DNA of 64,000 nucleotides from Berberis thunbergii (lineage: Eukaryota > Streptophyta > Magnoliopsida > Ranunculales > Berberidaceae), in assembly GCA_003290165.1 (NCBI GenBank), contig QNQO01000196.1:1-64000 (forward strand), written 5' to 3'. The first letter of the stretch is position 1, and each line of letters opens with the position of its first letter. The translations under genes were made by a program, and so were the position numbers. This document shows, in pieces, positions 23,538-58,119 of this stretch. Under the pieces are notes generated by a model. It was not told the origin of the DNA and made no database searches. It worked only from the letters and a program-made list of their open reading frames with translations.

Positions 23538-24076
23538 GCTACTACCCCGTTAGTTAGTGGGTATGTTGATGTGGCCACTAACTTTACGATGGTTAGACTT
23601 TCGATTTTATCATTATAGTGCATTTAATGTCGTTAACAGTTGTTGCTACGTTTGTTACCCGATGTTTCGTCTGCCTGTTCATTTCGGCACGATTTTTGAA
23701 GTGTTGTGCAGCCATCGTATCTCACACATTCTTCCATACGCGATTTTTTCGTTGCTCAGCCCTATAAAGAGGGGACATAAAGGTCGTATTTCTTTCTTTA
23801 CATTATTTTCATTCTCATACTTTTATTTTTTTTCTAATTCATTTTTGTCTTTTCACAATGCCTGGTTTCAAGATTCTAAGTGATGATGCGCTTGATACTT
23901 GCGAAGCTTTCTTTTCACCTAAGCGGGTGACGCAACTGACTCTAGATAGTGTTTCCTATGATTATTGATTGAGGGCAAACCTCGAGATCATCTTGTCGGG
24001 AGATGATGACAATACTTGTCGTCCGAGGCCTAGCTACATTGCATTGTATCCTAGCATGTTTCAGTTTGGTCTTAGG
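23538..24076 (+). pseudogene. Antisense accessory ORF (part 1) of a minus-strand family-2 element
   Basis: Follows the LTR and polypurine tract at 22999-23537. ATG at 23858 opens MPGFKILSDDALDTCEAFFS, and the frame then breaks at a stop near 23967. Later comes YIALYPSMFQFGLRL (about 24030-24074), interrupted by the hAT at 24077 and continuing after 27153 with PVPKIFLGVSRLLG. The FGLRLP...LLG block matches the PF04195-like family. The protein reads plus because the retrotransposon itself is on the minus strand. A TATA-like CCCTATAAAGAGG lies at 23760-23772, a possible promoter for this ORF. Confidence 0.65.
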
Positions 24077-25329
24077 TAGGGGTGGGCATGGTCCAGATCA
24101 ATTCCAAATTTGGAAGAAACCTAACTCGAACCGTTTAAAATTAACGGATCAGGTCCGGTCCGGATCCCCTCATTTTGAACATTGGAATCGAACCTAACTC
24201 GAACTGTTTGAAACGGTCCGGTTCCAAACGGTTCAAAATCTACAACAAATCCTTCTATTTGCAATTCACACATACTACAATTCAACATCCAATTCAAACA
24301 GTTTCACCTGTTTGAGTTTTTTCAATCTTTGCCAGCTTTGAAGAAAAACATATTGCATCTGGTGGCAACTTGCTGGCTAGAGTTTCTAAGAGAATTCTCC
24401 TTTCTACAGCACGAACTTCTTGGCTGATCCATTATACAATATTATACACACCAAGAGGAAAATTTGTTAAAGAAGCGGAAAATGAACCTTCATTAAGAGA
24501 AAACAAAAGTGTCCTAACATATTGAATGAGATTAAACCAGTACCTTTCAGATTCATCCCTGAATTTGAATGAGCGCAACACCCTTCCATCTTCAGCTCTT
24601 ATCACCAGTCTACACTAGGGGTGGGCACGGGACGGGATGAGACGAGATATACCCATCCCTATCTCATCCCATTCATACGGGATCGGGACGAGATCAGCGT
24701 GCTGCCTGTGACTGTCGCGAAGATTATCATCACATAAGAGCGTGAAAAATAACTTATTATAATTAGATATAGATGTGGCATGCAAATATAAGGGTAGCCA
24801 CTAAATCCCCTAACAATGAAGTCGAGTGGGCTTGACTTTTAGAAAAGGACATGATAAATGGGACCCACTAAGAGTATTGTATCGCTGTAATGGCCTTCCA
24901 ACTGATTTTACAATTTCATTACTGTGGGAAACAAAATTCATGGTTCCTTGACAAAATGACATTTCATCTTTTGTTATGGAAGAAATATAGATTTATTGGT
25001 AATGCTCTAACATATTCATAATGGTTTACCATCAATACATATATTGTAATTAAAAAAATTATTTTTACAGCCTGGGGCATCTCAAATTCTTGGCTCCGTC
25101 CCTGAATGTTCCCTTCTGAATATGTATTACTCAGTTAATTTTCATTTTTCATCTTTACCTAGGTATTATGAATATTTGGAAGTTAAATAATTGGAGCCAT
25201 TTTTATTGGGAATTCAAGCAACAGTCTGCTATCTTTCTCTTGCTTAATGAATATTTATTTCTTGAAGTAACATTTCTGTTACCACTGAAAACACCATGAG
25301 TTTCTGTCAGTCATCTGTAAGTTTATATG

Positions 25330-25520
25330 AATCATCATCATCATTATCATCAAAGCCCATTCCCGAGATTTTCGGGGTCGGCTACATGAATTTTGGTTCT
25401 CCAAGAAATGCGATCTTCCCACATTTCCACACCTAATCCAAGCTCAATGATATCTTCATTCACCGTCTTCATCCAAGTTTTCAACGGTCGTCCCCTCCGT
25501 CTACCCCCTCCATTAACATG
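25330..25520 (-). mobile_element. RTE-clade LINE 3' end fragment
   Basis: On the minus strand it ends CATGTAGCCGACCCCGAAAA, then CTCGGGAATGGGCTTTGATGATAATGATGATGATG. This is a widespread plant repeat end with a GATGAT tail that I associate with RTE-type LINEs. No coding part was seen. Clade assignment is from memory. Confidence 0.5.
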
Positions 25521-25529
25521 CCAATCTAA

Positions 25530-25735
25530 ACATAAGGAATAAATAATGTAAATAAAAAATAAATAAGTAAATAAATAATAAATATTTATTATGAATAAAA
25601 ATAAAAAATAAAATTTTATTTATGTAAGTTTATATGAATAAAAATAAAAATAAATAATGTAATAAAAATAATAAATAATAAGTTTATATGAATAAAAATA
25701 AAAAATAAAAAATAAATATTAAAAAAATAGCTCGG
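25530..25735. repeat. AT-rich low-complexity (AAATAAATAATAAA)n
   Basis: Irregular repeats of AATAAATAAA and TTTATATGAATAAAAATAAAA inside the nested hAT-like element. Confidence 0.85.
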
Positions 25736-56110: not shown

Positions 56111-56154
56111 CCTATCCTCTCTGTCGAAACAGCAAAACCCTAAGCAAGGAAAGA

Positions 56155-56345
56155 TTGAAAGCAGGGAACTTGAGAGGGAAGACCTTGGCAGTGATGGGTC
56201 TCTCAATCACAATCTCACCTTCTCTTCTCCTCATCTTCATCTTCCTCACAACCCCATTTCAGTTCATCTCAGGCGAAGCAAACCCAAATCTGGGTTCGAA
56301 TCCACTCTCATCCACTCTCATTACCAGGAAATTACCAGGAACATT
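56155..56345 (+). pseudogene. Captured first exon of an unidentified secreted or membrane protein
   Basis: ATG near 56196 opens MGLSITISPSLLLIFIFLTT followed by PFQFISGEANPNLG, a textbook signal peptide with likely cleavage after ISG or GEA. It ends in a stop at about 56348. The junction with the ABCC fragment contains three copies of AATTACCAGGA-like sequence (56320-56385), suggesting microhomology at the join. Parent gene not recognised. Confidence 0.5.
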
Positions 56346-56353
56346 CTGAAGTA

Positions 56354-57354
56354 AACCTAAACATTGCAAATTACCAGGAGAGAAAAAGATTGGAGTAGTT
56401 GGAAGGACAGGAAGTGGAAAATCCACTCTCATCCAAGCTCTATTCAGGGTGGTGGAACCCTCAAAAGGGAATATATTGATTGATGGAATGGACATCTGTA
56501 AGATGGGCTTGCACGATTTGAGATCTACATTAAGTATAATTCCTCAGGATCCAACTTTATTTCAAGGAACTATGAGATATAATCTGGATCCTCTCAACCT
56601 ACATTCAGATTATGAAATCTGGGAGGTAAAAGTCTATGATTTATTCTCTCTTTGGATTTTGCAATCAAGTAGTTAGTTCTTTCGTTACTAACTAATTTTC
56701 ATTTCAGGTTTTAAATAAATGTCATCTCGGTGATATAGTAAGGCAAGATCCTAGACTTCTTGATGCTCCTGGTACTGAGGATATCTAAAAACTAAGTTAC
56801 ATTCGAAGTTTGTAAAAATTTGAGTTAATGATACTGTCATAAACTCCAATGGGTATCACAGTAATGTCAATTTTTTATTTTTTTTTCATTTGGCCCTTGT
56901 GCAGTCGAAGAAGATGGAGGGAACTGGAGTGTGGGACAGAGACAATTGGTTTGCCTTGCTAGAGCATTGTTAAAGAAGACAAGAATTCTTGTTTTAGATG
57001 AAGCTACAGCTTCAGTCGACACTGAAACAGATAATTTTATTCAGAAGACAATGAGACAAGAAACAGGTTACAGCATTGTGATCACTGTGGCACACCGCAT
57101 ACCCACTGTGATTGATGCTGACCTAGTTCTAGTTCTCGATGAAGGCATGAAATATAATCCCGACCAATACTCAGTTTCATGAATTTTTAAAGGTCTTCAT
57201 GAAAGGATTGTGTAGCTGATTTTCATTTCTACCTTGGATCAATGCAGGAAAAATTTTGGAGTATGATGAACCTGGCCAGTTACTAAAAGATGACTCTTCG
57301 GCTTTCTCAAGGATGGTGATGGAGTACGTAAGAAGATCAGCCAAGGCCTCGTGA
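56354..57354 (+). pseudogene. Captured ABCC (MRP-type) transporter second nucleotide-binding domain, 4 exons
   Basis: Exon 1 (to 56625): [20 protein letters not shown] (Walker [10 protein letters not shown]), then [40 protein letters not shown] (Q-loop). Exon 2 (56708-56770): VLNKCHLGDIVRQDPRLLDA. Exon 3 (56905-57144): [20 protein letters not shown] (signature), [16 protein letters not shown] (Walker B and D-loop), [20 protein letters not shown] (H-loop). Exon 4 (57248-57354): KILEYDEPGQLLKDDSSAFS, ending RRSAKAS and stop. It is the C-terminus of a plant ABCC exporter with introns kept; the exon 3 donor is GC instead of GT. All ATPase motifs survive, but transmembrane domains and NBD1 are absent. 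Confidence 0.9.
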
Positions 57355-58119
57355 CTATGGCATAAACATAGCGAGATCTAATAGTAGATGACTCTTCAGA
57401 ATGTTTCAGAACTACCCTTTTTTCTTTCAGAATGTTCTCACCTAATAGTAGATACAATGTTTTTGTTTACTACTAGTGGTTTGTTGACTGTTGTTGATTT
57501 CCAAACAGAGCAAAGCTCCTCGTTTCTGTAAATTAATATGTTGGTTTTTTTTAATTTATTTTTTCTGTAGATCTCTTATGGATCTGTATGAAATGAATAT
57601 GACAGGATAAATTTTTTGTATGATTGTGAATGAATATGATTGGAAGTTTGGAACCATTTGGAATCGGGGAACCGAACCGTTTAGAACGGTTCGAGTTAGG
57701 TTCGTTTATCAAAATGAAGGGATCCGAACCGGACCGGATCCGTTAAAATGTAAACGGTTCGAGTCAGGTTCCTTCAAATTTGGAACTGATCCGGACCGTG
57801 CCCACCCCTAGTATAATGTATTAGATGTTTTACTCAAGCAAATTCCAATATGCAAATATAAAACATAAATTCCACCCAAACATTAAGCATACGAACAATA
57901 CCAAATGCAAAAAACTCAAATCCGAATCCTTATGCAAATGCAAATAAACATACTAATGTAAGCAAACATTCTTTGAAAACAAAGGAAATCTATGGACAAT
58001 TCAAGCTCCAAAAACAAATCAACCTATGAAGTAAATTCATCCTTAACATACCTGTTTATTGTAACTTCTGTATAAGATTCAACTGCTGTAAACAATTCAA
58101 ATAAATAGTTAGGAACGAA

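Follow-up and report, generated by a model that had tools for sequence, protein, structure and literature searches.

The 64,000 nucleotides of Berberis thunbergii DNA analyzed here (contig QNQO01000196.1, positions 1 to 64,000, referred to as the window) contain three non-autonomous hAT elements of one family, designated E1, E2 and E3. They resemble the Pack-hAT type, i.e. hAT transposons with captured pieces of host genes, and each is flanked by an exact 8-bp target-site duplication. The two ends of one element can be distinguished from each other and each is alike between the copies; they are termed A and B in the following.

24077..27152, minus strand: E1, Pack-hAT-like, B end on the right, cargo on the minus strand
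24069..24076 (left) and 27153..27160 (right): target-site duplication of E1, GTCTTAGG, exact 8 bp
24077..24240, plus strand: A end of E1, 84% identity to the A ends of E2 and E3
26953..27152, minus strand: B end of E1, TATAAA 120 from the end
50589..54008, minus strand: E2, Pack-hAT-like, B end on the right
50581..50588 (left) and 54009-54016 (right): target-site duplication of E2, CTCATACC, exact 8 bp
50589..50750, plus strand: A end of E2, similar to the other A ends
53809..54008, minus strand: B end of E2, 79% identical to the B end of E1 and 77% to that of E3
55515..57810, plus strand: E3, Pack-hAT-like, B end on the left
55507..55514 (left) and 57811-57818 (right): target-site duplication of E3, GTATAATG, exact 8 bp
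57640..57810, minus strand: A end of E3, similar to the other A ends
55515..55714, plus strand: B end of E3, TATAAA at 121

The terminus TAGGGGTGGGCA is common to all three elements, with one mismatch at the B end of E3. It presumably differs from the 11-bp terminus of Ac/Ds, and the rice Dart elements probably have a similar one. Identity between the A ends amounts to 79-84% over 150-163 bp. The values listed for the B end of E2 extend over 82 bp (to E1) and 116 bp (to E3), and the B ends of E1 and E3 share 88% over 181 bp. On both strands of the window, three subterminal repeats are confined to the six terminal 200-bp stretches (9 of 9 occurrences of AACGGTCC, 6 of 6 of GAACCGTTT and 11 of 11 of CGGTCCGG), which also hold 17 of the 31 occurrences of AAACGG. 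The latter motif is described as an Ac transposase site (PMC3260210). A scan of the window for pairs of terminal inverted repeats (TIRs) with at most three mismatches, combined with 8-bp duplications with at most one mismatch, returned the pairs of E1, E2 and E3 and no others, and 30 first-order Markov simulations of the window gave a mean of 0.03 TIR pairs. Single TIR-like ends with at most two mismatches, at 12129, 31245, 33086, 11574 and 23764, were rejected as family members; the terminal queries match no more than 13 bases there, near 31216. The shared termini, subterminal repeats and perfect duplications that an earlier note had read from the sequence are thus borne out by the window scan and the end alignments.

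The same note had proposed that the three elements carry pieces of unrelated host genes, introns included, namely those of a FAD monooxygenase, eL18 and the second nucleotide-binding domain of an ABCC transporter. This cargo was confirmed by Pfam and PDB matches, while the introns were read by eye:

24297..26796, minus strand: E1 cargo, opening half of a flavin monooxygenase gene with an in-frame stop, exon-intron structure read by eye
52195..53809, minus strand: E2 cargo, fragment of an eL18 gene in which residues 32-68 are seen, split by a nested element, with an apparent frameshift
55714..56061, plus strand: E3 leader, 200-547 from the B end, common to five other groups of the family
56350..57351, plus strand: E3 cargo, intron-containing piece of an ABCC transporter gene with its second nucleotide-binding domain and C-terminus
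56299..56435, plus strand: E3 junction, short sequence re-copied, direct repeats of 16, 12, 12 and 11 nt

The hand-spliced reading of the E1 cargo finds a monooxygenase as its top PDB match (E 7.1e-7, residues 12-143), followed by broader flavoproteins, and in Pfam it reaches DAO at E 5.4e-4, which falls short of the cut-off. Against PDB eL18, the uninterrupted piece of the E2 cargo scores E 0.0024 and the reading across the nested site E 1.4e-14; its Pfam match (PF17135, E 2.7e-4) likewise falls short of the cut-off. The E3 cargo matches PF00005 in Pfam and ABCC13 in PDB (E 7e-38 and 2.3e-38). All three cargoes are broken or partial, and all three read from B toward A, as had been claimed.

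To place these copies in their family, the B. thunbergii genome itself (2.24 Gb, 11,732 contigs) was searched with five end queries, which gave 2466, 1942, 2153, 1873 and 1541 initial candidates, with 40 scored per query. Retrieved were 52 A-end places outside the window, comprising all 39 other matches of one query and 13 of the 38 of another; the sampled copies were chosen by similarity to the A ends of E1 and E2. In 46 of the 52 places the A end is paired with a B end, and these paired copies show a perfect 8-bp duplication in 30 cases, one with a single mismatch in seven and none in nine. Among the remaining places, L041 lacks a B end over a distance of 6 kb, and L048, L051, L054, L055 and L056 lack one over 2 kb; the latter five all share the flanking 8 bp CTTTCCAA, two of them lie 790 bp apart on one contig, and they probably represent an A end trapped in another repeat. 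Together with E1-E3, the paired copies make 49 elements, which fall into 33 groups with different insides. The genome search with the element ends that the earlier note had called for shows host-gene coding DNA that differs between copies. At E ≤1e-5, 12 gene families were recognized in 13 groups, with E1 and E2 assigned via PDB and PsbP present in two groups (L049 alone at 4.7e-4). A transposase family was found by Pfam neither in the 114 frames of E1-E3 nor in the 391 frames of the 30 other groups. Core patterns of the A and B ends had 0 matches in viral_contigs and in genome_contigs, and the translated A end matched no protein. In view of the paired ends, the 8-bp duplications and the varied cargo, the proposed gene-capturing hAT family is supported: this Pack-hAT family is real and large.

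L009, on contig C6652, is a near-identical E1 copy with the same duplication. This contig matches the ends of E1 (99%), E2 (100%) and E3 (94%) in preserved order; it is probably the other haplotype, and some other copies sharing a duplication are probably alleles. L049 and L053 carry related PsbP pieces at different flanking sites, and because they occupy different sites, the PsbP cargo has been amplified. Many other A ends have the same score in the query of which 13 of 38 matches were sampled; these may be further PsbP-carrying copies.

For an independent view of cargo polarity, one copy was taken from each of 30 groups, excluding those of E1 (with L009), E2 and E3. Frames of at least 42 amino acids inside the ends were submitted to Pfam with the strands kept apart (198 reading B to A, 193 reading A to B), at a cut-off of E ≤1e-5. 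The following genes were counted:

L016, B to A: APO, E 7.6e-20
L012, B to A: HSF, E 1.6e-13
L026, B to A: PPR, E 8.2e-7
L043, B to A: H2A C-terminus, E 4.5e-8
L053, B to A: PsbP, E 6.6e-14 (the related L049 piece is counted with it)
L059, B to A: AlaRS, E 5.6e-12
L060, B to A: MLO, E 5.8e-8
L058, B to A: DDX23-type, E 6e-8
L028, A to B: GH3 and Fn3-like, E 1.8e-17 and 5.5e-6

Eight of these nine genes read B to A (two-sided p 0.039), and with E1-E3 included the count is 11 of 12 (p 0.006), the three window copies alone giving a two-sided p of 0.25. Rows excluded from the B-to-A side were Bac_small_YrzI (2.2e-8, bacterial and implausible), LiaI (0.0016), the PPR of L033 (0.0026), FBA_1 (0.0031) and TAFII28 of L030 (0.0032); those excluded from the A-to-B side were 7TM_GPCR_Srv (0.002) and Stealth_CR3 (0.0041). 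When every row at 0.005 is retained, the family rows number 14 in the B-to-A and four in the A-to-B direction. Further pieces were recognized by eye and left uncounted: L013 looks myosin-binding-like, L037 GMI1-like and L047 TauE-like, which together with L039 read B to A, and a second piece of L026 looks glutamine-dumper-like, reading A to B. Pfam returned nothing convincing for the frames of these five pieces. L017 resembles EF-P in the B-to-A direction at PDB 0.004 and Pfam 0.012, i.e. weakly. By profile position, gene starts are represented by MLO (1-36 of 483), AlaRS (2-45 of 552) and APO (19-98 of 200), as well as by the DDX23-type piece. E1 also holds a gene start, and H2A of L043, E3 and the GH3 exception are gene ends. 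Thus, the direction of the cargo is strongly biased from B to A. The constancy that the earlier note had proposed does not hold, since the GH3 piece of L028 reads A to B and makes the polarity a strong bias instead of a fixed rule. No published report of directional hAT cargo was found in literature searches made mostly on listings.

A plain Pack-hAT family with random capture direction, in which the sense excess is a matter of sampling, would be compatible with a count that comprises only nine independent test genes, with one clear exception and one by-eye exception among the pieces. Yet the p-values of 0.039 and 0.006 speak against it, as do matches between the insides of different groups, of which 203 share one orientation and none is inverted. 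Much of this set is inherited sequence, but 16 shared segments lie at differing distances from both ends, several being copies of one segment. The nine inverted inside matches all fall within a single group of close copies (L023, L050 and L057) with an internal inverted repeat. Chance alone appears an unlikely source of the bias.

The two ends also differ in features that might relate to transcription. Within the first 190 bp, 28 of 33 groups have TATAAA at the B end and two at the A end, compared with 10% of random 190-bp windows, and 23 of its 34 B-end occurrences lie at 111-121 bp. It is absent within 450 bp of the A ends of E1-E3, which is unremarkable alone because a random 450-bp window contains the motif in 22% of cases. 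Of the 33 groups, 19 have a stretch 210-360 bp inside B in common with at least one other group (at most seven partners), and 10 have the matching stretch inside A in common with one partner each; like the TATAAA counts, these counts are not independent because ends and leaders are inherited. Pyrimidines make up 0.57 of the sequence 200-350 bp inside B versus 0.48 inside A (27 groups; Wilcoxon p 4e-4). The shared leader of the earlier note is seen in part: beyond about 190 bp of the B end, E1, E2 and E3 are no more similar to one another than shuffled sequences, 13 to 124 of 300 of which score as high, and the leader of E3 is common to five other groups, those of E1 and E2 to none. The distribution of TATAAA between the ends raises the likelihood that the B end would serve as an element-borne promoter.

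Such a promoter-like end would equally suit a directional survival, in which capture is random and copies in sense to the B end are kept or amplified, or antisense copies silenced sooner. The antisense exception L028 has no TATAAA in its B end, which fits this scenario; yet the motif is also missing in L012, L030, L037 and L052, of which L012 carries its cargo in sense. Against it, none of the three cargoes in the window is an intact gene, each being broken or partial. We consider survival possible as the main cause but doubtful.

The reading that we find reasonably probable is that of a large non-autonomous hAT family with a promoter-like B end, whose insides are refilled with mostly sense and mostly 5' gene pieces. 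The B end would correspond to the 5' or promoter-like end of the element. After a break in or at the element, repair synthesis could jump onto host genes as template and then return, and a transposase from elsewhere, acting on the AAACGG-type repeats, may then mobilize the copy. The sense bias could stem from pairing between the pyrimidine-rich leader and the likewise pyrimidine-rich 5' leaders of genes running in the same direction, or from persistence of sense copies only. Several points weigh against this reading. Copies chosen by likeness to the A ends of E1 and E2 do not form a random sample, and no autonomous copy was seen among those examined. No donor gene was seen either, although no search aimed at donors was made. 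The GH3 piece of L028 runs A to B, and the by-eye second piece of L026 would lower the count to 8 of 10. Moreover, the cargo of E3 and L043 comes from gene ends, not starts, clear junction repeats occur in E3 only, and the TATAAA and shared-match counts lack independence.

As to the mode of capture, template-switching gap repair is most likely, as inferred from the structure of E3. This element is a patchwork of two pieces and contains 30 direct repeats of at least 11 nt spaced no more than 400 bp apart; 28 are counted in its tile, and none of the other 26 tiles exceeds 16. In the re-copied stretches 56299-56435 and 57288-57453, none of 1000 shuffles reaches the repeat number, with the regions having been chosen after the repeats were seen. 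Re-copied short stretches are the expected trace of template-switching gap repair, and gap filling has been modeled for single-copy animal Pack-TIRs (PMC8277862). Alternatively, two neighboring elements could have been mobilized together with the intervening host DNA. Such macrotransposition has been put forward for Pack-TYPE elements (PMC8903248), but it predicts no orientation bias, and within E1-E3 no internal match to an end exceeds 51 bp, so that it seems very improbable here.

For two of the elements, empty copies of the insertion site are present in the window. The joined flanks of E1 align across the site to 63348-63739 (80%), 12004-11694 (71%) and partly 29981-30218 (67%), which represent empty sites; a fourth copy of the flank at 28646-28843 matches on the left only. 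The joined flanks of E3 match 62140-61835 (97.7%), again an empty site, where the 8-bp sequence is present once, and none was found for E2 within the window. The E1 flanks (23000-28200) belong to a dispersed repeat, pieces of which are 66-84% alike near 62490-63816, 28189-28933 and 12840-11549. E3 is situated in an inverted duplication of about 460 bp (55414-58176 and 61677-62135), whose arms are 96-98% alike and only one of which holds the element. Because the other arm is empty, E3 probably arrived after the inverted duplication had formed.

E1 and E2 have themselves been targets of other insertions, for which no strand was assigned:

24616..25829: hAT-type element of another family, nested in E1 and lacking a perfect flanking duplication
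52290..53347: hAT-type element of another family, nested in E2 within the eL18 exon, perfect 8-bp duplication AGAATCAT
51215..52079: long terminal repeat (LTR)-like TG...CA element in E2, 865 bp, 5-bp duplication TTATC, with a TM9SF/EMP70 fragment

The nested elements are younger than their hosts. The one in E1 has the same 12-bp terminus but GGGACGGGAT repeats, and an open frame inside it presumably resembles the tail of a long interspersed nuclear element (LINE) protein. The hAT-type element in E2 carries a distinct TATATAAA motif along with a repeated leader rich in pyrimidines and belongs to a second family of similar layout. In the LTR-like element, the TM9SF/EMP70 fragment matches PF02990 in Pfam (E 5e-18) and has no match in PDB at 0.001. 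A PPR E-motif piece was noticed by eye at 51724-51909 (one of 104 frames matched E_motif, 6e-6), and it is possible that this short retroelement captured two genes. Elsewhere in the window, a full-length match to U2 spliceosomal RNA lies at 49205-49402 on the minus strand (RF00004, 146.9 bits), and a GRAS gene at 19987-21849 has its closest named matches, among the best 120 of 542 listed, at about 60% in eudicots.

Gene pieces between transposon ends are familiar from the Pack-MULEs of rice, which likewise prefer the 5' parts of genes but belong to another superfamily with long TIRs and duplications of 9-11 bp. Gene capture by hAT elements, termed rare in 2011 (PMC3260210), is already in print for maize (PMC8903248, PMC3260210), grapevine (PMC2528002) and animals (PMC8277862). 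The Pack-hAT/Pack-TYPE elements of maize share with E1-E3 their non-autonomous nature, hAT TIRs, 8-bp duplications and captured coding DNA; however, in that study the direction of an element was set arbitrarily by its largest member, and cargo polarity does not appear in the parts consulted (PMC8903248). Maize Ds2, whose two ends each comprise about 200 bp of Ac sequence, and Ds-l4 resemble the present elements in their 8-bp duplications, AAACGG subterminal repeats and gene fragments with introns, but represent another family and host, and the parts consulted likewise do not mention cargo polarity (PMC3260210). Grapevine Hatvine-6 has hAT termini and variable insides matching exons and introns, yet its copies share a transposase coding part (PMC2528002), and none was found in the frames of E1-E3 and of the 30 other groups. 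Among animal Pack-TIRs, for which the gap-filling model was formulated, the hAT superfamily contributes the largest share (208 of 370), although these stem from animal hosts and are mostly single copies (PMC8277862).

A further parallel comes from double-flowered Kerria japonica, in which intron 1 of AGAMOUS holds an insertion with inverted repeats TAGGGGTGGGC, an 8-bp duplication and no transposase (PMC6052346). The insertion measures 2411 bp, contains a broken host-gene piece and supplies exons to the transcript. It was left unclassified by its authors, and its 11-bp terminus and 8-bp duplication are those of a Pack-hAT. Conceivably, though we hold this to be rather speculative, the B end is a mobile promoter whose pyrimidine-rich leader guides repair onto pyrimidine-rich 5' gene leaders of the same direction, so that the act of capture would itself bring in gene starts in sense, each new copy would be a chimeric transcription unit and the Kerria insertion a horticulturally selected case.

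Taken together, the barberry family combines more than 1000 initial candidate ends per query with varied cargo, a bias toward sense and one conserved end that resembles a promoter. Hence, the acquisition of genes by DNA transposons and the direction of their capture become testable on many copies within one genome, and the match in Kerria hints at such elements altering a cultivated plant.

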